Origin: a virus
IMG/VR virus record: IMGVR_UViG_3300044627_001013
Location: 1 to 49,919 of that record
Length of the DNA stretch: 49,919 nt
Reading direction: 5' to 3' (one strand)
Shown in pieces: positions 27,431 through 45,206 of this stretch. Both the position numbers and the translations under genes were made by a program. The notes below the pieces were generated by a model. It did no database searches and had not been told where the DNA came from. It saw only the letters and a list, made by a program, of their open reading frames with translations. The first letter of the stretch is position 1; each line of letters begins with the position of its first letter.

Positions 27431-28375
27431 ATGGCATATACGATTGTTAAAAGCGACGGACAGGTACTGACTACTATAGCAGACGGACAAATTAACACTA
27501 CTAGTTCGTCATTAGGCCTACCTGGACGTAACTATGCTGGTTATGGTCAAGTATTAGATGAAAATTTTGTTTATTTGACTGAAAACTTTGCTTCAACTAC
27601 TCCCCCGGTCAACCCATTGCGTGGTCAATTGTGGTTTAATACAAATGATAATATACTATATGTCTGTCCTGCTGACGGAACTGTTGTAGCAGATGAGTGG
27701 CTAAGTCTAGCCATACAGACAGCAGAGGGAAATACTACATTCTCAGGAGTAGTTGTTACTGGTACTTTATCAGCCAATAACTTAATCATTACAAATAATG
27801 CATCAATACCCACTATTTCTTGTACAAACATAAGCGTATCTAATGTCGCAACGATACAAACAGCGAATGTTACATCTGCAAATATAGGAACAGTCACAAC
27901 TCAGGTAATTACTACAGGTGGCGTAGCGATTGCAGGAACGATTACAGGAAATTGGACTCTTACAGCAGGTTCAAGAATGCAAGCAACATATGCTGACTTA
28001 GCAGAACGTTTTGAATCTGATCTTGAATATGATGCTGGTACGGTAGTAGAATTAGGCGGCAGTAAAGAAATAACTGCTGTAAAATATGAATTAAGTGAAG
28101 ATGTATTTGGTGTAGTATCTAATACTGCTGCATATCTTATGAACGCAGGTGCAGGTGACGATAGAACCCACCCTGCTGTAGCAGTAACCGGTAGGGTAAA
28201 AGTAAAAGTAATTGGTCCAGTCCTTAAAGCACAACGACTTGTAAGTGCAGGTAATGGCTTAGCGAGGGCAGCAAAAGACGGAGAAGCCACTGCTTTTAAC
28301 ACTATAGGTCGTGCTTTGTCCGATAAACCTACTGACGATATCGGAACAGTAGAAGCAATTGTAACTATAAGATAA
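27431..28375 (+). CDS. Tail fibre-like protein with C-terminal ADLAE domain
   Basis: 314 aa. The N-terminus (GLPGRNYAGYGQVLDENFVY, then NPLRGQLWFNTNDN, residues 25-75) is a familiar opening of fibre/appendage proteins in aquatic T4-like phages. The middle (about 90-175) is Thr/Asn/Ile-rich beta repeat. The C-terminal 130 residues start with YADLAERFESDLEYDAGTVV and look like the terminal assembly or chaperone-type domain of fibres (Peptidase_G2-like IMC domains share the ADLAE-E-Y pattern). I cannot see whether it self-cleaves. It is preceded by a putative late promoter at 27404 and followed by another fibre gene. The probable role is host recognition or an appendage. Confidence 0.72.
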   Translation: MAYTIVKSDGQVLTTIADGQINTTSSSLGLPGRNYAGYGQVLDENFVYLTENFASTTPPVNPLRGQLWFNTNDNILYVCPADGTVVADEWLSLAIQTAEGNTTFSGVVVTGTLSANNLIITNNASIPTISCTNISVSNVATIQTANVTSANIGTVTTQVITTGGVAIAGTITGNWTLTAGSRMQATYADLAERFESDLEYDAGTVVELGGSKEITAVKYELSEDVFGVVSNTAAYLMNAGAGDDRTHPAVAVTGRVKVKVIGPVLKAQRLVSAGNGLARAAKDGEATAFNTIGRALSDKPTDDIGTVEAIVTIR

Positions 28376-28378
28376 ATA
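28371..28378 (+). promoter_or_regulatory. Putative T4-type late promoter box (GATAAATA)
   Basis: The octamer overlaps the stop codon of the preceding fibre gene and ends 23 nt before the next ATG (28402). A CGGAG ribosome-binding site (28389-28393) lies between them, the expected layout for a short late leader. Confidence 0.5.
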
Positions 28379-28401
28379 CATAGTCTAACGGAGATTTTAA
28401 T

Positions 28402-29352
28402 ATGACATGGGCAGCAGGCGGTTTAGTACAAGCAACTGATTTGAATACAATGCTAGGTGGTAATCCAACCACTACAACTAATACTCTTAATGCTACTTGG
28501 GCAACAGGTGGCAGTCAAGCAGGTTATGGTCAAACTGCTGTGGCAAACGTAGCAGCGGGTGATGTTGTTTCTGCTACCCCATGGAACGGATTATTCTATA
28601 ATACAGGCAATGCTGCTAGCCATCAAGGTACTAGCATCACTTCAATATCAAACGTCAGCTCAAGCAATGTCGTAACATTTTATTCAGCAGCCCAAACTAA
28701 TCTTAACAGCATCTACGCAGCGAGAGGTAATGCTGCAAGTCAAGGTTCAACCACATCAAACGCAGTCACAACTGCTTCAACTTGGACATCAACCGCAACA
28801 TTTACACAGACTGTAAGTTTTGCCAATGGTGACGCTGCACGTTATTTCTTTAATGCAGGCGGTCAGATCAAAATGACTGCCAGTCATCCTAATGTCACAG
28901 CAGGTGTGAATCAAGCATTATCAAATCTTTGCTCCGCAGTAGGCACAGTTGTAATCAGCGGACAAAATAGTGGCGCACGTACTATCGCAGGCACAAGTTA
29001 TAATGGTGTAACTAAAGTAGGCGGTAGCGGCTCAACACAAACACTATCAACAAACAGTGGTTATTTTGGATTGACTACAGGCAACACAACTATATTTGAC
29101 CAAAACTCAGCAGATAGCCCATATACTGCAAACATAGATTTGGTTTATATCGCAAAAACTACAGCAGCAACAGGCTCAAATGGAGACAATGGTAACGTTA
29201 TATCTGTTTTCACAGTACTAAGAGAAAGTGGAGCGAACGGAACTGTAGGTACAGGCACAGTCGTGACTTGCACAGTCACCCCACCAGCAACAACATATAT
29301 AGCCAATACTTGGGGAACTATTACGTTAGCCGGTAGTGTTGTAGTATCATAA
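28402..29352 (+). CDS. Ser/Thr/Asn-rich fibre or appendage protein
   Basis: 316 aa, strikingly rich in Thr, Ser, Asn, Ala and Gly, with almost no charged residues. The N-terminus MTWAAGGLVQATDLNTMLGG is followed by imperfect repeats (GNAASHQGTSITSIS and GNAASQGSTTSNAVTT). A segment ARYFFNAGGQIKMTASHPN is of a kind I associate with phage virion proteins, and the end (TWGTITLAGSVVV) looks like a terminal beta strand. The composition suggests a trimeric beta fibre or a decoration protein. A good CGGAG ribosome site lies 8 nt before the ATG, and a putative late promoter lies before it. It is the last structural gene; 53 nt follow before the accessory operon. Confidence 0.65.
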   Translation: MTWAAGGLVQATDLNTMLGGNPTTTTNTLNATWATGGSQAGYGQTAVANVAAGDVVSATPWNGLFYNTGNAASHQGTSITSISNVSSSNVVTFYSAAQTNLNSIYAARGNAASQGSTTSNAVTTASTWTSTATFTQTVSFANGDAARYFFNAGGQIKMTASHPNVTAGVNQALSNLCSAVGTVVISGQNSGARTIAGTSYNGVTKVGGSGSTQTLSTNSGYFGLTTGNTTIFDQNSADSPYTANIDLVYIAKTTAATGSNGDNGNVISVFTVLRESGANGTVGTGTVVTCTVTPPATTYIANTWGTITLAGSVVVS

Positions 29353-29405: not shown

Positions 29406-29711
29406 ATGGACACGAAAAAATTGGTTGCTGACATGAAGGCTCGGTTTGAGCATAATTCAGCAAAGCATTATCTTAAAGAAAAATATTCCAGTAAATTGTG
29501 TGTAGCAGAGCAGGGCGGCTATTGGAAAGCCGATGTTAATACCATTTCTTTTTTGAATTCACTGACAAGTAAAACTGTTGTACTTTTAGATTTATATGAT
29601 ATTCCTGTAAGTGTAAATGTCAAGAAACTACGAGATAAATTACAATCTGTCTATGACACAGTTATGACAGAATGGCATAAAGAATATAAAGATTTGGAAA
29701 CCAAGAGATGA
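29406..29711 (+). CDS. Unknown 101-aa protein, first gene of the accessory operon
   Basis: 101 aa, basic and mostly helical, with AEQGGYWKADVNTISFLNSL in the middle and a C-terminal helix ending in EWHKEYKDLETKR. It has no signal peptide or membrane segment, and I do not recognise a domain. It is preceded by the hairpin-borne ribosome site at 29391-29396. Its stop overlaps the next gene's start by 4 nt (ATGA), coupling it to the glycosyltransferase-like genes. It may be a small phage regulator or adaptor. Confidence 0.6.
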   Translation: MDTKKLVADMKARFEHNSAKHYLKEKYSSKLCVAEQGGYWKADVNTISFLNSLTSKTVVLLDLYDIPVSVNVKKLRDKLQSVYDTVMTEWHKEYKDLETKR

Positions 29712-30508
29712 CTAGAGGTGCATTGTTATTTGCATTCAATAGTCCTAAAGTAGATTATTATGCAATGGCAGAGTATACTGCTAAGAGAATAAATCATTTC
29801 TTAGATTTGCCTGTAACCATAGTAACTGACGAACATTCAATTCCTAAAAATACAACTTATAAATTTGATAATGTTGTTATAAGTAAACCGGATAAAGATA
29901 ATAAATTTCGTGATGATATCTGGATAAACAAAGGAAGATATCAAGCATATGAATATACTCCCTATGATGAAACTATATTATTAGACGTTGATTATATGGT
30001 TAACAGTGATAGGTTGTTACAAGTTTTTGACTATGTTAAAGATTATGCTTGTCATCAAAATATAGCACAGTTGATGATACCCGAAGGACAACAGGAGCAA
30101 TTAAGTAATATTAGTTTTCCTACACTATGGGCTACTGTTTTGGGGTTTCGTAAAACAGAAAAAACAGAGCAACTTTTTGCTTGCATGAAAATGATACAAA
30201 AAAATTATAGTCATTATGCTGCCTTATTTAATTTCAGCCCTGATATATATCGCAATGACTTTTCACTTACTATCGCTCATAGATTAATAAATGGTCATCA
30301 CTTTGACAAAAGTAATATCTTACCTTGGAATCTTATGCACGTCTGGCTTAGAACTAAGCTATTTGTAGAAAAGAAAACAAAATACAATACCAAATATACA
30401 GTAATATATGATCATCATAAAAATGGAAAGGTAAAGAAAGAATATATCACTATAAAAGATATGGATTTCCACGTAATTAATAAAGATGTATTCTTGGAGT
30501 TAATGTAA
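29708..30508 (+). CDS. Glycosyltransferase-like protein (GT-A type) A
   Basis: 266 aa. The N-terminus (ALLFAFNSPKVDYYAMAEYT, then LPVTIVTDEHS) is the first beta-alpha unit of a nucleotide-sugar-binding GT-A fold. Residues 93-95 form a DxD motif (ILLDVDYMV), the usual site that binds the metal and sugar-nucleotide. It is paralogous to the next gene, with the same 'VDY...AE..AK' opening. The donor and acceptor are unknown. It overlaps the upstream gene by 4 nt and the downstream gene by 1 nt, so the three are co-translated. It probably transfers sugar to a glycan or to a virion protein. GT8-like assignment is possible but not provable here. Confidence 0.62.
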   Translation: MTRGALLFAFNSPKVDYYAMAEYTAKRINHFLDLPVTIVTDEHSIPKNTTYKFDNVVISKPDKDNKFRDDIWINKGRYQAYEYTPYDETILLDVDYMVNSDRLLQVFDYVKDYACHQNIAQLMIPEGQQEQLSNISFPTLWATVLGFRKTEKTEQLFACMKMIQKNYSHYAALFNFSPDIYRNDFSLTIAHRLINGHHFDKSNILPWNLMHVWLRTKLFVEKKTKYNTKYTVIYDHHKNGKVKKEYITIKDMDFHVINKDVFLELM

Positions 30509-31302
30509 TGAATAAAGGATTTGTAGTCATAGCCAACAACACTAAAGCAGTTGACTACGTTTATATAGCGGAAGCATTGGCTAAGTCCGTTAAAAGTGTA
30601 ATGCCATCTGCACACATTACTTTAATATCAGATGATGTTGACACAAGCAAATATTTTGATAAAGTCGTAGCGTTACCATATGGTGATTTAGATAAAGAAG
30701 GTGACTGGCGTTTAATCAATGATTGGCAAGTTTATGAGGCTAGTCCTTATGAATACACGATCAAATTAGAAGCCGACTTGTTTATACCCCAATCTATAGA
30801 TTATTGGTGGGATGTTTTAAAAAGCAGAGACATAGTTGTTTCTACTAAAATTAGGAATTTTAAACAAGAAATAAGTGACAATAGATATTATAGAAGATTT
30901 CTTGATACTAACAATTTACCTGATGTTTATAATGCTATAACTTACTTTAAAAAATCTGAATTAGCAGAGCAGTTTTACCTAACTATTAAAGATGTTTTCG
31001 TAAATTGGGAAAAATACAGGCTTGAACTTAAATGTCCAGCCACCGAAAAAGTATCTACAGATTGGGCATACGCTATCGCTTGTTTGATATTAGGTGAAGA
31101 TAAAACTACATTAAAGAACTTTGATAGCATGAGCATGGTGCACATGAAACAACAAATCAATAATCTAGTGACTGAAGATTGGACAGATACATTAGTTTAT
31201 GAATTAAGTAACAAACAATTACGTGTAAATACAATACCGCAAATGTATCCTTTTCACTATCATGTAAAGAAATTTGCTAAATTTATTCACGAAAAATTAT
31301 GA
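30508..31302 (+). CDS. Glycosyltransferase-like protein (GT-A type) B
   Basis: 264 aa and a paralogue of the preceding gene. The start is GFVVIANNTKAVDYVYIAEA, with ITLISDD ending the first unit. The DxD-like motif is EAD at residues 88-90 (IKLEADLFIP). The downstream region (TDWAYAIACLILGEDKT) resembles the acceptor half of GT-A enzymes. The change from DxD to ExD could alter metal use or donor choice, and the two may act in sequence or as a heterodimer. The one-base overlap (TAATG) with the preceding gene and the ATGA overlap with the next show tight coupling. Confidence 0.6.
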   Translation: MNKGFVVIANNTKAVDYVYIAEALAKSVKSVMPSAHITLISDDVDTSKYFDKVVALPYGDLDKEGDWRLINDWQVYEASPYEYTIKLEADLFIPQSIDYWWDVLKSRDIVVSTKIRNFKQEISDNRYYRRFLDTNNLPDVYNAITYFKKSELAEQFYLTIKDVFVNWEKYRLELKCPATEKVSTDWAYAIACLILGEDKTTLKNFDSMSMVHMKQQINNLVTEDWTDTLVYELSNKQLRVNTIPQMYPFHYHVKKFAKFIHEKL

Positions 31303-31670
31303 ATGATAAAGAATATGTCAAAATTGGTCCACTAGGCGACCTAATAATAAACTTTGTGTACGAACCACCACCTCCACCTGAGTTTAGATTATATTACGAC
31401 GATAATGGGAACGTATTATTTTACACGGGTGAAAAACCTGAAGGTAATTATATTGTAGTAGATAAACAAACGTTTGCTGAGGCACGTCCCGATGTCAAAG
31501 TTATAAACGGAGTAATCATACTTAATAGTAACATTACTCAAATTTACAAATTAAAACCCACTACAGAAGGCACTCTTACTTATGTTGATGACGTAAGTCT
31601 GATATTAGATAGTACAGATGTAGAAGGTACTTATTGGCAGTTTGATATGAAAGAACTAATCAGGGAATAA
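31299..31670 (+). CDS. Small Pro-rich protein of unknown function
   Basis: 123 aa. A proline stretch (YEPPPPPEF) is followed by RLYYDDNGNVLFYTGEKPEG and YIVVDKQTFAEARPDVKVI, a pattern I recall from small uncharacterised proteins of aquatic phages. It is mainly beta with no catalytic motif visible, and no signal peptide. It sits between glycosyltransferase-like genes, overlapping the first by 4 nt, and could be a carrier or adaptor for the glycan pathway. The function is unknown. Confidence 0.6.
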   Translation: MNDKEYVKIGPLGDLIINFVYEPPPPPEFRLYYDDNGNVLFYTGEKPEGNYIVVDKQTFAEARPDVKVINGVIILNSNITQIYKLKPTTEGTLTYVDDVSLILDSTDVEGTYWQFDMKELIRE

Positions 31671-31671
31671 T

Positions 31672-32616
31672 ATGAGCGAAATAATTGATGTTGTAGATTT
31701 AGATTGCATTTACTTAAGTTATGACGAACCTCAGAAAGAAGAATTTTGGCTTAAAATTCGTAACATGGTTCCTTATGCTAAACGTGTTGACGGCGTAAAG
31801 GGAAGTGATGCAGCACACAAAGCCGCTGCTGAAGCCAGCGACACAGAACGTTTTATATTAATTGACGGCGACAATATGCCTGACGAAAATTTTTTCAATC
31901 TACAGTTAGATTTTACAGATAAAGAATCTAACTTTGAGAAAGCACAGTTTCGTTGGAAAGCCATCAACGTCATCAATGGATTGCGTTATGGTAATGGCGG
32001 CATGAGTAGTTGGACAAAAGAATATGTTATGAACATGAAAACTCATGAGACAAGTAAAGGTGACCACGCTACTCAAGTTGATTTTTGTTTAGACAGTGCA
32101 GATAATCTTTACTGGGCTATGTATGATTGTTATAGCACTACATACCCTAATCAGACACCTTTTCAAGCATGGCGTGCGGGCTTCCGTGAAGGCGTAAAGA
32201 TGGTACTTGACCGTGGGGCACTACCTACAGTTGACACTTTCCGTGATCGTGTCGCTAACAGAAACTTAAATAATTTAACCATATGGCAAAATGTCGGTAC
32301 TGACGTTGAAAACGGAATATGGGCCATAGCAGGAGCAAGATTAGGAACATATAAGGCTCTGTTAACTGACTGGGATTATACAAACGTGATGTGGTTTGAT
32401 AACTATCCCACAATGTGGGAAGAATATGAGGACAAAGATCCTACAGAGTTATCAGACGAGATAGGAGAAATCTTAAAATCAAAATTGGGTTTACCTATCT
32501 GTACTTACACACCGGAACAGAGTAAACTATTTAAACGTCATTACAATGCAGACAAGTATAATCTTGGCCCATTAGTACGTGAAATGGATGTAATCAGAAA
32601 AATAGAAGGGTGGTAA
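31672..32616 (+). CDS. Glycosyltransferase-like protein with DGD motif
   Basis: 314 aa. A first unit (DVVDLDCIYLSYDEP) is followed by FILIDGDNMPDENFF, where DGD (residues 65-67) is a DxD-type metal/nucleotide-sugar site. Further on, LRYGNGGMSSWTKEYVMNM resembles acceptor-site segments seen in phage glycosyltransferase-like proteins. The C-terminal 130 residues (AWRAGFREGVKM onward) are mostly helical. It is unlike the two upstream GT-like genes in sequence, so it probably has its own donor or acceptor. The final codon overlaps the next ATG (TAATG at 32614-32618). Confidence 0.58.
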   Translation: MSEIIDVVDLDCIYLSYDEPQKEEFWLKIRNMVPYAKRVDGVKGSDAAHKAAAEASDTERFILIDGDNMPDENFFNLQLDFTDKESNFEKAQFRWKAINVINGLRYGNGGMSSWTKEYVMNMKTHETSKGDHATQVDFCLDSADNLYWAMYDCYSTTYPNQTPFQAWRAGFREGVKMVLDRGALPTVDTFRDRVANRNLNNLTIWQNVGTDVENGIWAIAGARLGTYKALLTDWDYTNVMWFDNYPTMWEEYEDKDPTELSDEIGEILKSKLGLPICTYTPEQSKLFKRHYNADKYNLGPLVREMDVIRKIEGW

Positions 32617-34016
32617 TGAGTTACGAAATACAAAGAATCAAAGATATCAAAATAAAAGTAGAGAATGAAGTTGGTCCTACTTTTTGTCTTGCTAAATGGC
32701 ATCACGTAACTATGTACCTACAATCAGGTGAGACACATAGTTGTTATCACCCACGACCACATAAGATTCCCCTTCACGAATTAGAAGGTAATCCTTCTGC
32801 ATTGCACAATACAAACGAAAAGAAACTAGAACGCAAGATGATGCTTGAGGGAAAGAAGCCTGAAGGCTGTGTCTATTGCTGGAACATTGAAGGCATGGGT
32901 CCAGATTACATCAGCGACAGACACCAGCGCAACGCTAGCATCTTTACTGAAGAAAGATATAATCAAACAGCATTTGGTCCATGGGATCAAAACATCAATC
33001 CAGAATATCTAGAGATCAATTTCGGTAACGAATGTAATTTTAAGTGCGGATATTGTCATCCAAAATACTCAACACGCTTCTATCAAGAAATCAAAGAACA
33101 TGGGCCTGTCACAAATGTAAAGAATCACCGCTGTGATATTGATTGGATGAAATTGTATCAGCGCGAAGAGGAAAATCCATATGTTGATGCATTCTGGAAA
33201 TGGTGGCCTGAACTACGCAAGACCCTCAACATCATGCGTATCACAGGTGGTGAACCAACAATGCATAGAAGCACATACATGGTTCTTGATGAGATTGACA
33301 AAGATCCCATGCCTTGGTTAGAACTCAATATCAATAGCAATCTTGGCACAAAGACTGCACTTGTTGAAAAGATGAGTAAGGCAGTTAGAAAATTAAGCGA
33401 CGAAGGCAAGATACGTTCATTTAAATTATTCTCTAGTATTGATACTTGGGGTCCAAGGGCAGAGTATAATCGCACAGGCCTAGATATAGAATTGTGGGAG
33501 AAAAATTTACATACATATTTGACTCTAACGAATAGTCCAGTAACCTTCATGGTTACATTTAATTTGTTTAGCGTAACATCATTTAAATTATTGCTAGAAA
33601 AATTATTGGAATGGAGAAATATGTATGATTGGTATGATGACCCTGTTAATCCTCAGCATCGTATCAGATTTGACACTCCCTATCTACGGGAACCATTACA
33701 GTATGACATGAACTTATTACCAAAAGATGAGTTTATGCCTTATATGCGTGATGCTCTTGAATTTATGAAAGAAAACGTTGACGACACCTCAAGTAAAAAG
33801 TTTAGTTCTATTGAATATGAGCGTTTTAAAAGAGTAGTTGATTACATGGCAGAAACAGTTTACGATGATGAAAAATTAATTGAAGGTCGCAGAGACTTTT
33901 ATAATTGGTTTAACGAATTGGATGAGCGCCGCGACACCAACATGTTAGATATTTTTCCTGAACTATTAAATTTCTATAGATTGTGCCAAGAAACAAATAG
34001 AACTAACCCTCTTTAA
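32616..34016 (+). CDS. Radical SAM enzyme with N-terminal SPASM/twitch-like Cys module (1)
   Basis: 466 aa when started at the ATG overlapping the upstream stop (TAATG); a GTG at 32610 is in frame but less likely. The radical SAM [4Fe-4S] motif is C140-x3-C144-x2-C147 (GNECNFKCGYC), and ITGGEPTMH is the SAM-binding GGEP. An N-terminal module carries C24, C43, C85 and C88 (CVYC), the spacing of an auxiliary cluster domain normally found after the radical SAM barrel. A conserved substrate-side motif SSIDTWGPRAEYNRTGLD follows. It is the most divergent of the five members of this type here. The substrate is unknown. Twitch/SPASM enzymes such as BtrN act on sugars or cyclitols, and others on peptides. 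The next gene starts in an overlapping TAATG. Confidence 0.82.
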   Translation: MSYEIQRIKDIKIKVENEVGPTFCLAKWHHVTMYLQSGETHSCYHPRPHKIPLHELEGNPSALHNTNEKKLERKMMLEGKKPEGCVYCWNIEGMGPDYISDRHQRNASIFTEERYNQTAFGPWDQNINPEYLEINFGNECNFKCGYCHPKYSTRFYQEIKEHGPVTNVKNHRCDIDWMKLYQREEENPYVDAFWKWWPELRKTLNIMRITGGEPTMHRSTYMVLDEIDKDPMPWLELNINSNLGTKTALVEKMSKAVRKLSDEGKIRSFKLFSSIDTWGPRAEYNRTGLDIELWEKNLHTYLTLTNSPVTFMVTFNLFSVTSFKLLLEKLLEWRNMYDWYDDPVNPQHRIRFDTPYLREPLQYDMNLLPKDEFMPYMRDALEFMKENVDDTSSKKFSSIEYERFKRVVDYMAETVYDDEKLIEGRRDFYNWFNELDERRDTNMLDIFPELLNFYRLCQETNRTNPL

Positions 34017-35290
34017 TGGAACTTAGCAAAGAATATTTACTAAAGAATAGTAAAACATTTTGTATGTTTCCATGGATACACTTGCATACCACGCCTGAGG
34101 GTATCGCGGCTCCCTGTTGTATAGCAGATGTGAAAAACAATGACTTAGATACTACTGCTTTTGGAAACAGTCGTAGCAGTGGACTTATGGAACTTGTCAA
34201 TAGTTCAGAAATGAATCAGTTGCGTCTTGATATGATCAACGGCATAAAATCAAAACATTGTGCAAAATGTTATATGCATGAGGATCAAATCATAGACAGC
34301 CATAGAAATTTTGCAAATAGAGAATATGGAGAATATTTTGAAAAAGCGTTCTCTTATACAGATTTAGAAACGGGAAGTTTAAAAAAATTTGAAATGGTAT
34401 ATTTTGATATACGTTTTAGTAATATTTGTAATTTTAAATGCCGTACTTGCGGGTCAGGATTTAGCAGTCAGTGGGAGCAAGAAGATTTAGCAAATAATCT
34501 TTCTTATGCAAAATCTATTCCTAAAAATGATGATAAACAATTTCTCAAAGATGTAATTGAACAAATTGATTTTATGCAAACTGCCTATTTTGCAGGCGGA
34601 GAACCGTTAATTACTGAAGAACATTATATAATGCTTGAGGAAATGATTAAACGCGGAAAGACAGATATAGTTTTAAGATACAATACAAATTTAAGTAATT
34701 TAAAGTTTAAAAATAAAGATATATTTGGTTTATGGAAACACTTTAAAAATAAAATAATTATTAATGCTAGCATAGACCATATAGGTAAAAGAGCAGAGTA
34801 TATCAGACACGGGACTGATTGGGGCTTAGTAGAAACTAACTTTTTAAATGCAAAAAGTAAACCATACATCAGTTTGCGAATGAACACAGTGTTAAGCATT
34901 TTTAATTATCTGTCGCTAACGGAATTTTATGAATACTTGATTAATCATAATATGTTTACTGGTGACGATGAAACATTTAGTTTATACCCCATGATGACTC
35001 CTACCTATCTAAGCGCACATATACTACCCAAAACATATAAACAAAAGGGTAGAGAAGGTATGACAAAAATAGTACAAATTTTAAAAGACAGTAATATTAA
35101 AGAATTTAATATAGGACACATTGCTGAAAGTTCTGCTTGGGTAGAAAGTCTAAATAGCTGGCATGTAGAATGCACTAAATTCAAGAGTGAAATTGAAAGA
35201 TTAGACAAAATACGCAATGAAAATTTCGTTGATGTATTCCCAGAATTAGCACAGTTATTAGATACCCCAGTAGATGTAGACCAAATATGA
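34016..35290 (+). CDS. Radical SAM enzyme with N-terminal SPASM/twitch-like Cys module (2)
   Basis: 424 aa. Auxiliary module: C16 (FCMFPW), C34-C35 (PCC) and C82/C85 (CAKC), the SPASM-like pattern placed before the core. The radical SAM motif is C138-x3-C142-x2-C145 (CNFKCRTC), with GGEP at residues 194-197 and the motif SIDHIGKRAEYIRHGTDWG. It closely resembles the next three genes and probably arose with them by tandem duplication. The start overlaps the upstream stop by one base, and the stop overlaps the next start by 4 nt (ATGA). It is probably a sugar- or peptide-modifying radical enzyme; the actual reaction cannot be told from the sequence. Confidence 0.85.
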   Translation: MELSKEYLLKNSKTFCMFPWIHLHTTPEGIAAPCCIADVKNNDLDTTAFGNSRSSGLMELVNSSEMNQLRLDMINGIKSKHCAKCYMHEDQIIDSHRNFANREYGEYFEKAFSYTDLETGSLKKFEMVYFDIRFSNICNFKCRTCGSGFSSQWEQEDLANNLSYAKSIPKNDDKQFLKDVIEQIDFMQTAYFAGGEPLITEEHYIMLEEMIKRGKTDIVLRYNTNLSNLKFKNKDIFGLWKHFKNKIIINASIDHIGKRAEYIRHGTDWGLVETNFLNAKSKPYISLRMNTVLSIFNYLSLTEFYEYLINHNMFTGDDETFSLYPMMTPTYLSAHILPKTYKQKGREGMTKIVQILKDSNIKEFNIGHIAESSAWVESLNSWHVECTKFKSEIERLDKIRNENFVDVFPELAQLLDTPVDVDQI

Positions 35291-36510
35291 AAAATTTAAA
35301 TAAAGAATATCTTTTAAAAGAAAGTAAATCATTTTGTATGTTTCCTTGGGTTCATCTATATACAAGTCCAAAAGGTAAAGTTTATCCATGTTGTACTACT
35401 GATGAGTCTGTCGTCCTAGGCGATACCCATAACGAAAAACTTGAACAAATTTGGAATAGTGATCAATTGAAACAGATAAGACTTGACATGCTTAACGACA
35501 AGCCTGTTAATTTATGTAGATTATGTTATAAAATGGAAGAGTCAACTCCTTGGACTTGGAGAAGATTTAGTAACGACACGTTTGAGAAATATTTTGATGA
35601 AATAGTAACACAGACAGAAGATGATGGTAGACTTGAAAACTTCAAACTAAAATTTATTGATGTAAGATTTAGTAATATATGTAATTTTGCCTGTAGGACA
35701 TGCGGTAGTGATTGCAGTTCAATGTGGGCTGCTGAAAATAAACAAAGAGGTCTGATCAATCATATAGTATTACACGCTGACGACCATAAGGGTAATTTAC
35801 TACAGGAAGTGTTGTCACAAGTTCATAATGCTGATATAATTTACTTTGCAGGTGGTGAGCCACTGATCACTGAAGAACACTATACGATACTTGAAGAGTT
35901 AGTAAGACAAAATTTAACCCATATTAAATTACGATATAATACTAATACAAGCACTATCAAGTTTAAAAGTTTTGATTTACTGGATTTGTGGAGTCGTTTC
36001 AACACCATTGAAGTACAATCAAGCATAGATCATTATGGAGAAAGGGCAGAATATATACGACATGGAACAGATTGGGCAGATGTTGAGAGAAACTTGTTGT
36101 TGTTTAGGCAACAACCTAATATTACTGTAGGTATATCTACAGTGTTAAGTGTTTTTAATTACCAAACTCTCACTGAGTTTTATAACTATATGTTAGACAA
36201 AAAATTATTGGGATACGGTGACAAAAATCTATACTTGACTCTTACAAACAACCCAAAACATATGTGTAGTAAAAATCTACCTGGCTACATCAAACATAGC
36301 GGTAATGAAAAAATTAAACGTTTTAATACATTATTGAACTATATAGAATTAAAAAATTGTTTAACTGAAGCAGCAGAATTTACTAATGCTGAAGATTATT
36401 GGCCTACCTATAAGGACAAACTAAAAATTGACATCTATAAAATAGACAAAATAAGGGGTCAAGATTTTGAAAAAACTTTTCCTGAGATAGCAAGTTTGTT
36501 AGATGCATAA
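35287..36510 (+). CDS. Radical SAM enzyme with N-terminal SPASM/twitch-like Cys module (3)
   Basis: 407 aa. C17 (FCMFPW), C35-C36 (PCC) and C77/C80 (CRLC) form the N-terminal auxiliary module, which also carries the SPASM-typical 'LEQIWNSDQLKQIRLDML'. The radical SAM motif is C132-x3-C136-x2-C139 (CNFACRTC), with GGEP at 189-192. SIDHYGERAEYIRHGTDW is nearly identical to the neighbouring paralogues. It starts inside the stop of the previous gene. A short 12-nt gap precedes the next paralogue. Confidence 0.85.
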   Translation: MKNLNKEYLLKESKSFCMFPWVHLYTSPKGKVYPCCTTDESVVLGDTHNEKLEQIWNSDQLKQIRLDMLNDKPVNLCRLCYKMEESTPWTWRRFSNDTFEKYFDEIVTQTEDDGRLENFKLKFIDVRFSNICNFACRTCGSDCSSMWAAENKQRGLINHIVLHADDHKGNLLQEVLSQVHNADIIYFAGGEPLITEEHYTILEELVRQNLTHIKLRYNTNTSTIKFKSFDLLDLWSRFNTIEVQSSIDHYGERAEYIRHGTDWADVERNLLLFRQQPNITVGISTVLSVFNYQTLTEFYNYMLDKKLLGYGDKNLYLTLTNNPKHMCSKNLPGYIKHSGNEKIKRFNTLLNYIELKNCLTEAAEFTNAEDYWPTYKDKLKIDIYKIDKIRGQDFEKTFPEIASLLDA

Positions 36511-36522
36511 GTGAGTATATAA

Positions 36523-37752
36523 ATGGATAAATCATTCTTATTGAACGAAAGTAAAGTATTTTGTATGTTTCCGTGGCTACACTTGAATGTGACGCCTAAG
36601 GGAGACATATATCCCTGTTGTAGCAATGACTACAAGTATCCATTTGCTAATACAAAAGATAGCACATTAGAGCAAGCCTTCAATAATGAAAAAATGAAAC
36701 AATTGCGTTTGGATATGCTTAACGAGAGAAAAAACTCTATTTGCAATTTTTGTTATAAGCACGAAGAAGCAGGCCCCTACAGTTTTAGAAATTATAGCAA
36801 AGACCAGTTTGCAAAACATTTTGATGAAGTTGTACCAACTACGTTAGAAGATGGCACAGTACCAGAATTTAAGATGCGTTACTTTGACATACGCTTTAGT
36901 AATATCTGTAACTTCAAATGTCGCACATGCGGAGCAGAGTTCAGTAGTCAATGGGCTGCTGAAATGCGTGAAAACTTTCAACCAGATCATCCTATCGTAA
37001 TACATGCTGATGATAATCGTGGAACATTACTTGACGAAGTTCTGAAACACATAGAACATATTGATTTGGCTTACTTTGCAGGTGGCGAACCATTGATCAC
37101 AGACGAGCATTATGTTATGCTTGAAGAAATGATACGTATGGGACGTACTGATATAACACTTAGATACAACACGAACGCAAGTAATATCAAATACAAAAAG
37201 CATGACATTTTGGATTTATGGAAACATTTTAAACGTGTTGAGTTAAGTTGCAGCATAGACCACTATGGTGAACGAGCAGAATGGCTTAGAAAAGGAACTG
37301 ATTGGGGTAAAGTAGAAAGTAATCTACTTACTTTTAGAGAACTAGATTATGTTAGTTTCCAGATTAATACAGTGTTTTCACTTTTCAATTACCATACTAT
37401 AAGCGAATTTTACAACTACTTAAAAAGTAAAAATTTGATAAGACAGCACGATTGGTATCATAGTCTATATCTCGCAGTACACCCGATACACTATTGTGCT
37501 AAGAGTTTACCTAAAATTCTTAAACAAGAGGCTTCTGAGAAGGCTAAAATTTTCGTAGACAATATTAAAGATGAGATACCCTTAATGGCAAATCTAGTTA
37601 ATGATGCGATCAAATTTGCTGATGAAGATAATACTTGGTCACAGGCTAAGCAGATGTTTATGCAACATACAGCATCAATTGACAAAATACGTGAGGAAAG
37701 TTTCTGGAAAACGTTCCCTGAATTAAATAGAATGAAGGATCTACTGGAGTAA
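36523..37752 (+). CDS. Radical SAM enzyme with N-terminal SPASM/twitch-like Cys module (4)
   Basis: 409 aa. C14 (FCMFPW), C32-C33 (PCC) and C74/C77 (CNFC) make the auxiliary module. The radical SAM motif is C129-x3-C133-x2-C136 (CNFKCRTC). FAGGEPLITDEHYVMLEEMI and SIDHYGERAEWLRKGTDWG are shared with the other paralogues. The C-terminal 100 residues are helical and diverge, and may set substrate choice. The ATG at 36523 follows a 12-nt AT-rich gap with no strong ribosome site. It is part of the same operon. Confidence 0.85.
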   Translation: MDKSFLLNESKVFCMFPWLHLNVTPKGDIYPCCSNDYKYPFANTKDSTLEQAFNNEKMKQLRLDMLNERKNSICNFCYKHEEAGPYSFRNYSKDQFAKHFDEVVPTTLEDGTVPEFKMRYFDIRFSNICNFKCRTCGAEFSSQWAAEMRENFQPDHPIVIHADDNRGTLLDEVLKHIEHIDLAYFAGGEPLITDEHYVMLEEMIRMGRTDITLRYNTNASNIKYKKHDILDLWKHFKRVELSCSIDHYGERAEWLRKGTDWGKVESNLLTFRELDYVSFQINTVFSLFNYHTISEFYNYLKSKNLIRQHDWYHSLYLAVHPIHYCAKSLPKILKQEASEKAKIFVDNIKDEIPLMANLVNDAIKFADEDNTWSQAKQMFMQHTASIDKIREESFWKTFPELNRMKDLLE

Positions 37753-37756
37753 CCTC

Positions 37757-39031
37757 ATGGATAAAGAAACAGTCCAAAAACTTGTAAAGGACGGCAAATA
37801 CTTTTGTGTTTTACCTTGGATTCACTTTCATGCTTGGCCAGATAAGCGTATTTTACCATGCTGTGTTGCAGACAGTAACATGCCCGTAAGTGAGATTGAA
37901 GATAATCAAAGTGTTCTAGATATGGTAAACAGTCCTGATTTTAAAAAGATCAGACTAGCCATGTTAAATGATGAGCCAGTAGAAGCATGTAAGCGTTGTA
38001 ACGACATAGAACAATTGGGCACGTGGACTATGCGTCAGAGTCATAATACTCGCCGCGGAGAAGAGTTAGTAGATTATATTGTAGAATCTACAAATAAAGA
38101 TGGAAGTCTAAAAGAATTTAAAATGAAATACATGGATATACGTTTCAGTAATCTATGTAACATGAAATGTCGCAGTTGTGGTCCAGGATGCTCAAGCCAA
38201 TGGGCGCAAGAGTATGTTGACGAATATGGTATGGAAAAATATGAACATTTTTGGAACGCTAAGAAAATTGTTGTGAACAACAATGAAGAACAAAAGTTCA
38301 TGAATAAATTAAAGTTACACTTAAAAGATGTAGAGGAAGTGTACTTTGCAGGTGGTGAGATCATCATCACTCCAGAACACTATGAGTGCTTAGACTATTG
38401 GATTGAGAATGGATTAAACGAAAAAGTTGAGTTGACTTATACAACAAACTTTTCGTCATTAAAATACAAGAAGAATGTAGATTTAATTGATTATTGGAAG
38501 AAGTTCCCTAAACTAAAAATATGGGCAAGTTTAGATGCTCATGGTGAACAAGCAGAGTTGCTGCGTAAGGGTACTGACTGGGAACGTATTGTCGCTAATA
38601 TCAAAACAGTAAAAGAACAAGTGCCTCACGCTGAATTTCAAATTACACCGACTATAAGCATATGGAATGTTTTCACATTTCCTACTTTCTTTGATTACAT
38701 GATTGAAAATGGATTTATTGATACAAAGTCAAGTCCAAGATTTAATATGTTAACTTATCCTTGGTATGCAAACGTAATGATATTACCAGGCTTTGTTAAG
38801 CGCAGGCTTGCAGAATTGTATCGTCATTATCAAAATAAGTATTCCGATAACATTCATATACATAATGGTTTTAAGATGATTGTTTATAACTTGTTGAGTG
38901 GTGAAGAAAACAAAAGCGGTATACGTGAATTTATTGAAGCCAACGACAAAGTAGACAAGGTTAGAGGTGAAAGCCTAGTTAGTATCATACCAGAATTACA
39001 AGAGGTATATGAGTGGGCCAAAGAAAATTAA
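37757..39031 (+). CDS. Radical SAM enzyme with N-terminal SPASM/twitch-like Cys module (5), GGEI variant
   Basis: 424 aa. Auxiliary module: C17 (FCVLPW), C35-C36 (PCC), C78/C81 (CKRC). The radical SAM motif is C134-x3-C138-x2-C141 (CNMKCRSC). The usual GGEP is GGEI (YFAGGEIIITPEHY), and the paralogue motif reads SLDAHGEQAELLRKGTDW, so this copy has drifted the furthest of the tandem four. It probably keeps SAM chemistry because the Gly-Gly-Glu is intact, but its substrate may differ. A CTGGAG ribosome site lies in the 3' end of the upstream gene. The next gene's start overlaps its last 19 nt. Confidence 0.83.
   Translation: MDKETVQKLVKDGKYFCVLPWIHFHAWPDKRILPCCVADSNMPVSEIEDNQSVLDMVNSPDFKKIRLAMLNDEPVEACKRCNDIEQLGTWTMRQSHNTRRGEELVDYIVESTNKDGSLKEFKMKYMDIRFSNLCNMKCRSCGPGCSSQWAQEYVDEYGMEKYEHFWNAKKIVVNNNEEQKFMNKLKLHLKDVEEVYFAGGEIIITPEHYECLDYWIENGLNEKVELTYTTNFSSLKYKKNVDLIDYWKKFPKLKIWASLDAHGEQAELLRKGTDWERIVANIKTVKEQVPHAEFQITPTISIWNVFTFPTFFDYMIENGFIDTKSSPRFNMLTYPWYANVMILPGFVKRRLAELYRHYQNKYSDNIHIHNGFKMIVYNLLSGEENKSGIREFIEANDKVDKVRGESLVSIIPELQEVYEWAKEN
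39001..39005 (+). promoter_or_regulatory. Ribosome-binding site deciding a GTG start
   Basis: AGAGG, inside the end of the upstream radical SAM gene, lies 7 nt before GTG 39013. It supports the GTG start of the following gene, which has no ATG nearby. Confidence 0.6.
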
Positions 39032-39984
39032 TTGCTATTGAAGCCCCTCAACCTTACCTAAGTATTACTTGGCAAGTTAATAACTATTGCAACTATCAAT
39101 GTAGTTATTGCAACCCGGGTAACTGGGGAGGTAGTGCTAAAAATGAAGGCAATACTGACAAGTATATAAAAAATCTAGAAACGATAGTTAACAAGTATAA
39201 GAACGCAGGCTATAAAAACTTTAAATTTTTCTTTAGTGGTGGCGAACCCACAGCATGGAAAAATTTTATACCTATCTGTGAATGGATATACAACGAACTA
39301 CCGCGTGCAACACTAGCAGTAAACACAAACTTAAGTCGTCCATTAGCATGGTGGGAAAAGCATTATTACTTATTTGATGATATAGTTGCTAGTTTCCACA
39401 TTGAATTTGCTAACAAAAAACGATACGAAGAAAATAATATATTCTTATGCGATAAGGTGAATTATCTATCTACAAAGATGCTATTACATGATGAGCGTTT
39501 TTGGGAAGTAGTAGAGTTTGGCAATTATCTAAAAACTGTGATGCCTAACTACTTTATTGAATGGACTCCTTTATTTGACGAGATGACTTCAAATACAGGT
39601 CCCTGGCATTATAGCGATCCTGCCAAAGTAGAATTTATTAAAAATAATATTACTGAAATTCAAGTAAAAAAGAGAAAACCTACAAAACGCACTACCATGA
39701 CAGTTAGTTACAACAGGTACGATGATAATACATCCGAAGTCTGTAATAGTAACGAAGTTATTGTCGCTGGTAATAACTTCTTCATGGGCTGGGAATGTAA
39801 TGTCGGTGATTGTATTTTCATCAATCCAGTTGGTGAGATGAGTCTAGCAAGTTGCGGTCAGGGAGGGTACGTCGGTCACATCCTTGAAGATATTGCTAGA
39901 GTAGGACCTAGAGTAGTACAATGCGGAAAAGAGCATTGTCATTGCGGAACCGATATTATAATTCCTAAATATTTACCTCAATAA
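39013..39984 (+). CDS. Radical SAM enzyme with C-terminal Cys-rich tail
   Basis: 323 aa from GTG 39013, supported by AGAGG upstream. The radical SAM motif is near the N-terminus: C26-x3-C30-x2-C33 (CNYQCSYC), with SGGEPTAW downstream and ITWQVNNYCNYQ as the lead-in. It lacks the SPASM-first module of the preceding genes. Instead the C-terminus has a Cys-rich end (WECNVGDC, then ASCGQGG and CGKEHCHCG), likely to bind an auxiliary cluster. It is therefore a distinct subtype with the conventional domain order. It is shorter than many SPASM enzymes (about 400 aa). The function is unknown, probably modification of the same glycan or peptide. Confidence 0.8.
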   Translation: MGQRKLIAIEAPQPYLSITWQVNNYCNYQCSYCNPGNWGGSAKNEGNTDKYIKNLETIVNKYKNAGYKNFKFFFSGGEPTAWKNFIPICEWIYNELPRATLAVNTNLSRPLAWWEKHYYLFDDIVASFHIEFANKKRYEENNIFLCDKVNYLSTKMLLHDERFWEVVEFGNYLKTVMPNYFIEWTPLFDEMTSNTGPWHYSDPAKVEFIKNNITEIQVKKRKPTKRTTMTVSYNRYDDNTSEVCNSNEVIVAGNNFFMGWECNVGDCIFINPVGEMSLASCGQGGYVGHILEDIARVGPRVVQCGKEHCHCGTDIIIPKYLPQ

Positions 39985-39992
39985 ATAATCTG

Positions 39993-41375
39993 ATGTTGTC
40001 AGATCATTTAAAAGTTGTATACTCATGGATGGGTCCTAAAGGGCCGATTTTTAATACTGAACCACCAAATCTTTACTCACTCATAACAGAAGCAGAAAAA
40101 ATTAAACCTGAAACTTTTTTCTATTGGAGTGATCAATTATGGCAAAATATATTTAAAAAAAGAAAAGAAGAATGGATTTTGTGGCCTAATAGCGAGGTCA
40201 CTCATAAAGATATTTTTGTTTTTCCTTATTCACTATACTGGAGAATTCCGCCTGAAAGATATTTCATGGCTGGTTCAGGTATAATTGAGTTTAGTCACAT
40301 GTCAGGACATGTATTAGAGCAGATTAGAACTGGTAGAGGGTTCATATTAATAGAACTAGCAGTGGAAGCTTATATTGATGACAAGATATTAACTAATATG
40401 CACCATTATTTTAATAGTTCATTAGGTTTACCTATGAATAAAATCATTTATATTACCGGTTGTATGAACGCTAAACAAATATATGACAATTGGTGTGAGC
40501 GCCACAATATACCAGATAGACCAGATCAACGAATGCATGTCATAGCATGGCCTAGTAGTCAGGGTATTTTTGCAAGGCAATTTTCTCTGAACATGTTGAA
40601 AGAACCTGTGTATGATGAAAATTACTTCCCTGAAAAATTATTTTTAAGTTTTAATAGAAGATTTAGGCAACATAGATTAAACTTATCATTAGCACTCAAT
40701 AAGCACAATCTATTAGAAAGATGTTATTGGGCTTTAAGTAAAGTTGATCCGGAAAGTCCTAGACCATTTTTAGAAAATGTTGATATAGCCGGCTACCCTG
40801 AGTTAAATTTGACTAATGAAGATATAACTAATCTTTATAACAAGTTACCATTAGTTCTTGACGGGGAAACACGCATAAATCAAATGTGTGCTGACGAAGA
40901 GATGGCTACTAGACAATTTTACACGAATAGCCTCATAAGTTTGGTTACAGAAACAAACTTTAGAGAACACAACGTTTCGCTTACAGAAAAAAGTTTTAAG
41001 CCACTTAAAGAAAAACATCCCTTCATAATTGTAGGGTCTGCTTATTCGCTGCAATCGTTACGAGATTTAGGTTTTCAAACCTTTAATGATTTTTGGGATG
41101 AAAGTTACGATCTACAGCACAATCACTATAAACGTATGGCAGCAATCGTAGATTTATGTTTGGAAATCAGTAAATGGGATATTAATAAAGTTCTAGAGTT
41201 TAGACGTAAAGTCAAGCCTATCTTAGAACATAATTTCAATCTTATGAAAGAAAGGCCCGAAGCAAACGTGAGTAAAAAGATAGCTAAATATATGATAGAT
41301 CAATTAGCTCTAACAGGTCAGTTAGACTATGAAACATATAAAAAAATAAGAGAAGAAAGAGGACTTAATTCATGA
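39993..41375 (+). CDS. Possible glycosyltransferase (GT-B/fucosyltransferase-like end)
   Basis: 460 aa with no confident family. The C-terminal half has FLSFNRRFRQHRLNLSLAL (residues 217-235), LVTETNF (317-323) and TEKSFKPL (331-338), followed by KHPFIIVGS and LGFQTFNDFWDESYD. This run resembles the nucleotide-sugar-binding half of GT10-like or exostosin-like transferases, where a conserved 'E-K-x-x-K-P' segment contacts the donor. The N-terminal half (IFVFPYSLYWRIPPERYFMA) would be the acceptor domain. It may alternatively be a non-catalytic phage protein of related fold. Its 4-nt overlap with the GDP-mannose epimerase gene downstream makes a GDP-sugar donor plausible. Confidence 0.5.
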   Translation: MLSDHLKVVYSWMGPKGPIFNTEPPNLYSLITEAEKIKPETFFYWSDQLWQNIFKKRKEEWILWPNSEVTHKDIFVFPYSLYWRIPPERYFMAGSGIIEFSHMSGHVLEQIRTGRGFILIELAVEAYIDDKILTNMHHYFNSSLGLPMNKIIYITGCMNAKQIYDNWCERHNIPDRPDQRMHVIAWPSSQGIFARQFSLNMLKEPVYDENYFPEKLFLSFNRRFRQHRLNLSLALNKHNLLERCYWALSKVDPESPRPFLENVDIAGYPELNLTNEDITNLYNKLPLVLDGETRINQMCADEEMATRQFYTNSLISLVTETNFREHNVSLTEKSFKPLKEKHPFIIVGSAYSLQSLRDLGFQTFNDFWDESYDLQHNHYKRMAAIVDLCLEISKWDINKVLEFRRKVKPILEHNFNLMKERPEANVSKKIAKYMIDQLALTGQLDYETYKKIREERGLNS

Positions 41376-42349
41376 AAACTGTTTTAGTGTGCGGTGCAGG
41401 AGGCTTTATAGGCACCCACCTTGTAGAAAGTTTAAAAAAACAAGGACATTACGTGATTGGGGCAGATTTAAAATTCCCATTATATAGTGAAACTAAATGT
41501 GATAAGTTTTACAAATTAGATTTACGTGAATATCAAAATGTAAAAACTATCTTTATGAATCGTATTGATGAAGTATATCAGTTAGCAGCAGACATGGGAG
41601 GCGCAGGGTATATATTTACAGGCGATAACGATGCTGATATCATGCACAATAGCGCAACCATAAACTTAAACATTTTAGACAATATGGTAAAACATAATGT
41701 AAAAAAGGTATTTTATAGTTCTAGCGCATGTATGTATCCTGCATATAATCAAACTGATCCCAATAATCCATTACTGACAGAAGATAGTGCATATCCGGCA
41801 GAACCAGACAGCGAATATGGTTGGGAAAAACTGTTCAGTGAAAGATTGTACTTAACCTATGCGCGTAATTATAAAATAGATGTACGTATCGCACGTTTTC
41901 ATAATATATTTGGCCCGAGAGGTAGTTGGAACAACGGCAAAGAAAAAGCCCCGGCCGCGTTGTGTCGTAAGGTAGCAATGGCCGAAGATAATGGTACTGT
42001 AGAAGTTTGGGGTCCTGGTATACAGACACGAAGTTTCTTATATATTGATGAATGCATAGATGGCATACATCGTATCATGGAAGCAGATTATCAAAAACCT
42101 CTCAATCTTGGTAGCACATTGATGATTAGCATCAATGATTTAGTCAAATTGATTGCTAAAATTTCAGGTAAAACAGTTAATATTAAAAACATTGAGGGTC
42201 CGATGGGCGTCATGGGTCGCAATAGTGATAATACATTAATCAAAGAAAAAATTAATTGGGCGCCCGACGAAGATTTAGAAGGCGGATTAATCAAGACATA
42301 TGCTTGGATTAAGGAACAATTAGACAATAATATTAAAGATGTAGAATAA
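41372..42349 (+). CDS. GDP-mannose 3,5-epimerase
   Basis: 325 aa, an SDR sugar-nucleotide epimerase. It has CGAGGFIG (residues 7-14, NAD binding), ADMGGAGYIF, the SSACMYP segment, YGWEK, the GKEKAPAALCRK stretch, and TRSFLYIDEC. As I know the Arabidopsis enzyme, its catalytic residues are C145, Y174, K178 and K217; here C120, Y149, K153 and K192 all sit exactly 25 positions earlier, so all four are retained in register. Family members convert GDP-D-mannose to GDP-L-galactose (and GDP-L-gulose). The gene overlaps the upstream possible GT by 4 nt, so the sugar is probably used by a local transferase. Presence in a phage operon is unusual. Confidence in the family is high; the exact product is inferred. 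Confidence 0.9.
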   Translation: MKTVLVCGAGGFIGTHLVESLKKQGHYVIGADLKFPLYSETKCDKFYKLDLREYQNVKTIFMNRIDEVYQLAADMGGAGYIFTGDNDADIMHNSATINLNILDNMVKHNVKKVFYSSSACMYPAYNQTDPNNPLLTEDSAYPAEPDSEYGWEKLFSERLYLTYARNYKIDVRIARFHNIFGPRGSWNNGKEKAPAALCRKVAMAEDNGTVEVWGPGIQTRSFLYIDECIDGIHRIMEADYQKPLNLGSTLMISINDLVKLIAKISGKTVNIKNIEGPMGVMGRNSDNTLIKEKINWAPDEDLEGGLIKTYAWIKEQLDNNIKDVE

Positions 42350-42350
42350 G

Positions 42351-43232
42351 ATGTCTAAAAAGTATATTATAGGCCTAGGCTGTAGTTGGACGCAGGGCGA
42401 AGGTGGATATCCTGAAGAAATATGGCAACAATATAACGGCAGAGTTCAACTAAGGGGTGTTGACGATTATCACTTACGCAAGTATGAACATGAAAATAGT
42501 TGGGTAAATGTATTGTGCAGGGACCACTTTAAAGATTACACACCAATCAATCTAGGTGTTCGCGGCATAGGTAATTTTGCAGCAGTAAATCAATTACATT
42601 TTTGTAACAGAATAGATTGGAAAAATGCAACAGGCATTATTATTTTAATGATGTCCGGCTTTGAGCGTTTTGATGTATTTCAACAGCATCCCAAGCATGA
42701 TAGAGGTCAAGATGACTTTTATAGCAGTAATGAATATGTACACTATAAATGGCGCACGGCTTGGCCTATAGCCAATAAAAGTGGCGCAAGCGATAACGTA
42801 TTTTGGGGAACCTATGCTAAAGAACTATGGTCAGAACAGTTTGTCGCTTCTTGGCAAGTAATTAATTTATTGAATCTACAAGCATTCGCTAGGGCAAATA
42901 ATTTTAAATTAGTTTTAGCCAATGCATTCAATCAATCTCCTAACGGTGTTTACAATTATCTAAAAGATAATACAGGATCACTAGTTTATCAATTTGAATG
43001 GAATAACTATATTCATAACTATGTTAATTATGAATCATTCATGCAAAAATTAGTAGATTTAGATGGACTGATTCCAAAAGAAAATTGGGGCGGTTATTTT
43101 AATGTTTATCGCAATAGATCATGGCCATCTACATATCTGACAAATTGTGAAGGGGCACATCCTACAATAGCAGGTTATAAAGTTATAGCAAGCGAGTTAG
43201 CCCAGTTCATAAATAGTCATGGATATGTCTAA
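42351..43232 (+). CDS. SGNH-hydrolase-like protein A
   Basis: 293 aa. Residues 8-16 (GLGCSWTQG) match SGNH block I, with Ser12 as likely nucleophile. GVRGIGN gives block II-type Gly and Asn. The C-terminus EGAHPTIAGY (residues 267-276) resembles block V, with His270 as catalytic His; the usual Asp is replaced by Glu267. SGNH enzymes are esterases or acyl-transfer enzymes acting on acetylated sugars and lipids, and here O-acetyl removal or addition on the glycan is plausible. No signal peptide, so it is likely cytoplasmic. It starts 1 nt after the epimerase stop. Confidence 0.72.
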   Translation: MSKKYIIGLGCSWTQGEGGYPEEIWQQYNGRVQLRGVDDYHLRKYEHENSWVNVLCRDHFKDYTPINLGVRGIGNFAAVNQLHFCNRIDWKNATGIIILMMSGFERFDVFQQHPKHDRGQDDFYSSNEYVHYKWRTAWPIANKSGASDNVFWGTYAKELWSEQFVASWQVINLLNLQAFARANNFKLVLANAFNQSPNGVYNYLKDNTGSLVYQFEWNNYIHNYVNYESFMQKLVDLDGLIPKENWGGYFNVYRNRSWPSTYLTNCEGAHPTIAGYKVIASELAQFINSHGYV

Positions 43233-45156: not shown

Positions 45157-45194
45157 TTTTTTATACATATCTATAGTTGTTAAATAGATGTGAC

Positions 45195-45199
45195 AGGAG
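45195..45199 (+). promoter_or_regulatory. Ribosome-binding site deciding a TTG start
   Basis: A clear AGGAG ends 7 nt before TTG 45207, an ideal spacing. This favours the TTG over the longer open frame beginning at 45177. The 50-nt gap here (45157-45206) has no clear terminator. Confidence 0.7.
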
Positions 45200-45206
45200 A
45201 AAAAAC

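Follow-up and report, generated by a model that had tools for sequence, protein, structure and literature searches.

An array of radical SAM enzymes with the twitch domain in front of the barrel

The window, the 49.9-kb stretch of DNA analysed here, is the virus record IMGVR_UViG_3300044627_001013 (49,919 nucleotides) and comes from a myovirus with gp25- and gp6-type baseplate genes at its start. At 32616-39031 it carries five contiguous ORFs (open reading frames) encoding radical SAM (S-adenosylmethionine) enzymes of the N-terminal twitch (N-twitch) type, as the original prediction had described: T1 (32616..34016, 466 aa), T2 (34016..35290, 424 aa), T3 (35287..36510, 407 aa), T4 (36523..37752, 409 aa) and T5 (37757..39031, 424 aa). 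These five and the other window genes described here from fibG2 to the carbamoyltransferase lie on the + strand. The five proteins matched the NCBIfam model NF033640 (N_Twi_rSAM) over nearly its whole length with 303, 358, 351, 363 and 364 bits, respectively, all above the curated cut-off of 170 bits, and the family that had been named in the prediction is therefore the one to which they belong.

The unusual domain order that had been read from the letters was confirmed. Four cysteines precede the CxxxCxxC motif in T1 (24/43/85/88, then 140/144/147), T2 (16/34-35/82/85, then 138/142/145), T3 (17/35-36/77/80, then 132/136/139), T4 (14/32-33/74/77, then 129/133/136) and T5 (17/35-36/78/81, then 134/138/141), and a SPASM match (PF13186, residues ~14-86) lies upstream of the radical SAM match (PF04055) in T2-T5. 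The PF04055 matches of T3 and T4 were over the Pfam cut-off, those of T1, T2 and T5 under it. T1 is the copy with the looser front motif (FCLAKW, with the single Cys43) and is only 21-23% identical to the other four. The motif SIDHxGxRAEYIRHGTDW, said to be shared by four copies, is near-exact in T2 and T3 only; T4 has SIDHYGERAEWLRKGTDW and T5 SLDAHGEQAELLRKGTDW at this place. Among 340 distinct viral relatives Cys14, Cys74 and Cys77 were kept in all 340, Cys33 in 334 and the three SAM-cluster cysteines in 339, and because of this near-invariance the cysteine pattern of T1-T5 cannot be a matter of chance.

A profile of the front domain, built from 119 relatives, aligned over its full length with the twitch domain at the C-terminus of BtrN, the 2-deoxy-scyllo-inosamine dehydrogenase of the butirosin pathway (E 2-3e-7). 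The BtrN cysteines at chain positions 169, 187, 232 and 235, which we take to be the auxiliary-cluster ligands, aligned with the four cysteines of the N-twitch family, the second of which may correspond to one or the other Cys of the PCC motif. BtrN (PDB 4m7s/4m7t) and T1-T5 thus have in common a twitch with four cluster-ligating cysteines; the twitch follows the barrel in BtrN and precedes it in T1-T5, and overall identity is low. In T2-T5 the front domain spans residues ~14-86 and the barrel begins at ~120, and the C-terminal placement of BtrN was not found. Because the alignment includes the four cluster ligands, the N-terminal domain of T1-T5 is, by sequence comparison, a twitch domain that has changed its place from after the barrel to before it.

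The AlphaFold model of T4 had a pLDDT (predicted local distance difference test) of 96 and a pTM (predicted template modelling score) of 0.91. Its nearest solved folds were anSME, BlsE, sactipeptide and CteB/SuiB-type maturases, DesII, MoaA and viperin, with Z 11-13 and a maximum of 12.9. BtrN was not among the 50 VIA-align matches listed, which says nothing either way. The predicted binding of an auxiliary cluster is argued from the conservation of the cysteines and from the alignment with BtrN.

A fixed gene block and an exchange point behind u314

The search with T4 yielded 61 viral loci, in which the order fibG2-fib316-u101-GT1-GT2-u123-u314-T1-(T2)-(T3)-T4-T5-rS6 was largely kept, with T1 usually opening the array and T2 and T3 as variable copies. 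In the window the left end of the fixed block is formed by fibG2 (314 aa, with a Peptidase_G2-like C-terminal part) and fib316 (316 aa) at 27431..29352, whose synteny extends over ~60 viral loci; their place and the domain suggest that they are tail-fibre genes. The intramolecular-chaperone-like Peptidase_G2 part of fibG2 (27431-28375) matched PF11962 with 4e-6, slightly over the Pfam cut-off. The putative glycosyltransferases GT1 and GT2 (29708..31302), conserved in order in all loci, gave no Pfam match, and GT1 gave no PDB match either. GT1 has an invariant DVD, and GT8-type neighbours have been reported in a phage tail-fibre region (PMC7029224); on this basis both are probably glycosyltransferases. 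They are followed by u123, a small protein of unknown role kept by synteny (31299..31670), and by the last fixed gene, u314 (31672..32616), which overlaps T1 in a TAATG.

The u314 protein has a conserved D-G-D/D-A-D, with D65 and D67 invariant in the alignment. All PDB matches of its AlphaFold model (pLDDT 80.8) were of the GT-A type: Z reached 10.0 against GT-A enzymes over residues 4-160 and was 8-9 against nucleotidyltransferases of the same fold. As judged from the model, u314 is a protein of the GT-A fold with a D-x-D-like motif, a fold common to glycosyltransferases and nucleotidyltransferases. In the most divergent phages (L051, L054, L057, L058 and L060) the u314 homologues have 541-924 aa, and ~75-residue repeats of unknown role (IWAVK...YNPDLPKL...PYHDLEYEHVWMLD), arranged in a chain, precede the GT-A domain.

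The right end of u314 marks a sharp boundary. A search with u314 gave 407 relatives, from which 80 loci were kept; in these the left block is fixed, and behind u314 follow N-twitch arrays of 1-8 genes in many combinations. Wherever a locus extended for at least 9 kb behind u314 (52 loci), it carried 1-8 N-twitch genes, which directly adjoined u314 in 40. Phage pairs with 81-88% identity over 2.8-6 kb were alike up to the final base of the u314 stop, that base included, and had nothing or only scraps in common after it. Among 677 pairs, the alignment ended within -10..+12 bases of the stop in 335 and ran on for more than 1 kb in 301; intermediate lengths were few. At 64 of 73 loci the u314 stop and the following start codon overlap, as TAATG or TGATG. 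Since the gene content behind u314 differs, replacement of cassettes at the stop codon is a better reading than fast divergence. The alternative occupants were an NTP transferase, a mannose-phosphate isomerase-type cupin, SGNH-type proteins (DUF6071), a dTDP-4-dehydrorhamnose epimerase, a GDP-mannose dehydratase-like gene, a UDP-glucose dehydrogenase and a carbamoyltransferase.

None of the 537 ORFs behind u314 had two or more transmembrane-like stretches; with the same test 169 of 1054 bacterial ORFs (16%) were positive. The pathway would therefore be soluble and cytosolic, lacking a flippase or polymerase, which argues, without proving it, that the acceptor is the virion and not a lipid-linked glycan of the host. 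In the reading that we favour, and to which we give about even chances, the array is the variable, exchangeable part of a cytosolic sugar-decoration island, whose glycan is carried by the virion or the tail fibre. More tentatively, and with doubt prevailing, we suggest that jumbo phages use this locus to swap whole radical-SAM sugar pathways behind the stop codon of one fixed glycosyltransferase, so that the tail fibres or virions of each line bear a radical-tailored, otherwise unknown sugar of their own.

The product of the same sugar pathway could instead alter a surface glycan of the host (O-antigen or capsule) and block further phages, which we consider unlikely. A change of the O-chain was proposed for SAR11 myophages, where glycosyltransferases and radical SAM cassettes occur in the tail-fibre region (PMC7029224), and an arms race over surface sugars would agree with the rapid change of the island. 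Against such a role, there is no flippase, polymerase or lipid-carrier transferase (none of the 537 downstream ORFs looks multi-membrane), and the left genes are closely bound to tail fibres.

Genes downstream of the array and the virus

The radical SAM genes do not end at 39031: three more follow at 39013-39984, 43219-45156 and 45177-47513, which makes a total of eight within 15 kb (T1-T5, rS6 and two B12-binding enzymes). The first, rS6 (39013..39984; PF04055 1e-6), has the ordinary barrel-first order, with cysteines at 26/30/33 and seven C-terminal ones at 244-311, and adjoins T5 in nearly all loci. It is followed by u460 (39993..41375), an island protein whose fold is unknown and looks GT-B-like by eye only; it is present in several diverged copies per island and found no match in Pfam or PDB. 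Then come an NDP-sugar (nucleoside diphosphate sugar) epimerase/dehydratase resembling GDP-fucose synthase (41372..42349; PF01370 5e-43; NF047922 2e-33, under its cut-off) and an SGNH/GDSL-like hydrolase or acyltransferase (42351..43232), which matched PF00657 weakly (E 0.01). The B12-binding radical SAM protein at 43219..45156 (PF02310, PF04055) is of the KedN5-like C-methyltransferase type (NF033712 4.5e-73, under its cut-off), and a second one, u778, lies at 45177..47513 (PF04055 3e-17, PF02310 3e-10). A second SGNH-like protein, u252 (47513..48271; weak match to DUF6071, E 0.006), precedes a NodU/NolU-type carbamoyltransferase (48364..49848; PF16861 2e-48, PF02543 2e-34, phrog_1601) close to the island's right-hand end.

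On this right side u778, the carbamoyltransferase and a second, larger relative of u314 are common to five related jumbo contigs, and the conserved core resumes ~30 kb on. In all five (G001-G005) the larger u314-like gene stands directly after the carbamoyltransferase, ~13-19 kb behind the array.

A carbamoyltransferase is reportedly linked to cytosine modification in phage DNA (MetaGPA study), and the radical enzymes, transferases and carbamoyltransferase might thus decorate the bases of the phage by DNA hypermodification. We hold this to be very improbable: each of the five jumbo contigs has a single strong thymidylate synthase match (351-360 bits), with no hydroxymethylase-like copy beside it, and the island is placed among tail genes. 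A search for Tet/JBP dioxygenases also gave no match, a weak point as the control set matched nowhere either.

The gp6 relatives of the window's gene belong to jumbo phages, e.g. Atu_ph07, Phosso and RaK2, and contigs related to the window are up to 364 kb long; as far as such relationships tell, the virus is giant-phage-like. After the gp6-type baseplate gene, positions 7102-26619 form a single ORF of 6505 aa; the counterpart position in Atu_ph07 holds a structural protein of 4449 aa. Tandem DNA repeats were sought in the array region and none bearing on the array were found. A nucleotide search of the array against 50,697 phage records gave zero matches. With tblastn, T4 matched only the Vibrio phages K566/K567, V05 and PG216 and one marine single-cell virus, and T1 gave no matches.

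Descent and bacterial relatives of the N-twitch enzymes

Local duplication had been proposed for the four similar paralogues. In a gene tree of 164 N-twitch sequences T2, T3 and T4 fell into one phage-only clade (100%), and T1 into a deep separate clade that includes proteins from a Bacteriovoracaceae chromosome and from marine phage contigs (100%). T5, a distinct subfamily, grouped apart with a Bdellovibrionia protein in the free tree (97%), and the approximately unbiased test did not reject T2-T5 as a single clade (p 0.60). The T1 and T2-T4 groups were retained in a second tree calculated with a mixture model. The trees are thus in line with duplication for T2-T4, and T5 may share their source. 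Since T1 belongs to an old separate subfamily, a single local duplication is not supported as the source of all five genes, and the 100% clade of T2-T4 is at odds with five independent acquisitions, the outcome against which the prediction had been staked. By the tree topology the origin of T1-T5 is neither a single burst of duplication nor five independent acquisitions.

To the question whether the paralogues are phage-specific the answer for the family was negative, as bacterial chromosomes carry N-twitch arrays as well. A Bacteriovoracaceae chromosome (L072:6055-18051) has eight N-twitch genes of several subfamilies in one array beside obgE/rpmA, with no obvious sugar genes. A 936-kb Bdellovibrionia contig (L148:1301-18812) has about nine radical SAM genes, five of them N-twitch, together with an SGNH-type protein and a u314 relative, and resembles the phage set. 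The neighbours of bacterial N-twitch genes (n=137) included 12 radical SAM, 6 SGNH, 4 PhyH and 3 B12 proteins. Six contigs from GTDB metagenome-assembled genomes assigned to Rickettsiales, Pelagibacter, Verrucomicrobia and Betaproteobacteria (L077, L078, L079, L086, L103 and L109) show the phage order from tail fibre to u314 and look like mis-binned phage contigs.

Several observations weigh against a sugar-decoration island. No glycosyltransferase family was among the 25 commonest families of the 137 bacterial neighbours, and the eight-gene array of L072 sits between ordinary housekeeping genes; the substrate of N-twitch enzymes need therefore not be a sugar. SPASM/twitch enzymes often modify peptides, and so do many of the structures related to the T4 model. 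Neither u460 nor GT1 has a recognisable fold match, and the acceptor (virion, host surface or other) is deduced from the place of the genes and the lack of membrane genes only.

A rival reading is the direct modification of proteins, such as the neighbouring tail fibres or the small proteins u101/u123, by epimerisation, cross-links or C-methylation, which we judge quite unlikely. Its case is that the nearest folds include the peptide-modifying anSME, SkfB, CteB and SuiB, that sets of radical SAM and B12 radical SAM enzymes are known from polytheonamide-type peptides, and that the bacterial N-twitch arrays lack glycosyltransferases. Opposed to it are the absence of a separate leader-binding (RRE) domain from the Pfam and NCBIfam matches and the nature of the replacements at the array spot, which are nucleotide-sugar genes and not peptidases or transporters.

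Proposed pathway

The sugar context of the array is supported by the GT-A-fold neighbour, the NDP-sugar epimerase, the NodU/NolU carbamoyltransferase and the alternative sugar cassettes; the multi-step radical pathway on a sugar, which the original prediction had considered plausible, is what we infer from it. In the favoured sugar-decoration pathway, the tail fibres would come from the fixed genes on the left, together with at least one transferase of the GT-A type (u314; GT1 and GT2 are probably others), and the cytosolic enzyme set plugged in behind the u314 stop codon would build or finish the sugar. Each N-twitch enzyme is predicted to hold one SAM-cleaving [4Fe-4S] cluster and, in the permuted twitch, one fully Cys-ligated auxiliary [4Fe-4S] cluster. 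The 5'-deoxyadenosyl radical may abstract hydrogen from a carbon adjacent to an OH group, as in BtrN or the anaerobic sulfatase maturases, and the auxiliary cluster would accept the electron, leaving an oxidised (keto) position. Sugars or sugar-like rings are the substrates of BtrN, BlsE and DesII. Every paralogue would have a position or step of its own; C-methyl groups would be added by the B12 radical SAM enzymes and a carbamoyl group by NolU. Transfer of the sugar would take place in the cytosol, most likely onto a virion or tail-fibre protein. Sugar substrate, oxidation chemistry and virion acceptor are all part of the conjecture.

Relation to known systems

Phage modules with several radical SAM genes are already known. 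The Campylobacter phages CP220 and CPt10 have eleven to twelve radical SAM genes each, including one interchangeable five-gene module, for which an auxiliary metabolic role was suggested (PMC2853527). An anaerobic or cofactor advantage to the infected host, as for those phages, has in our opinion only a slight chance of explaining the present array. No CP220/CPt10 protein passes the N_Twi_rSAM cut-off, the best reaching ~35 bits, nearly all from the barrel, and the set described here is bound to tail-fibre and transferase genes, with sugar genes as its replacements.

The Aeromonas jumbo phage vB_AerVM_332-Vera has eight radical SAM genes within a structural and tail-fibre cluster (PMC12390700); its likeness to the present array is drawn from the published description. 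In pelagimyophages, T4-like phages of SAR11, one hypervariable region combines tail-fibre and glycosyltransferase genes with added cassettes of radical SAM genes (PMC7029224). The contigs L077, L078 and L086 have the fixed order with four to five such radical SAM genes; the pelagimyophage paper does not give the enzyme family, the permuted twitch or the exact junction.

The definition of NF033640, whose cut-off T1-T5 exceed, does not include arrays of up to eight genes at a fixed exchange point, and no characterised member or assigned substrate of the family was found in the literature searched. In the same literature, which left most subscription journals outside, no paper was found on permuted-twitch arrays, a fixed exchange point or a link to a GT-A gene. 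By that measure, the permuted-twitch arrays and the fixed exchange point are new.

Phage and bacterial data contain many N-twitch radical SAM enzymes. The natural sets, with 1-8 paralogues, fixed partners and a clean left boundary, make it possible to relate enzymes to products from phage to phage. Should the sugar reading be true, phages use oxygen-sensitive radical chemistry to vary their surface sugars, which would bear on phage-host recognition, on phage-phage exclusion and on the search for new sugar-tailoring enzymes.

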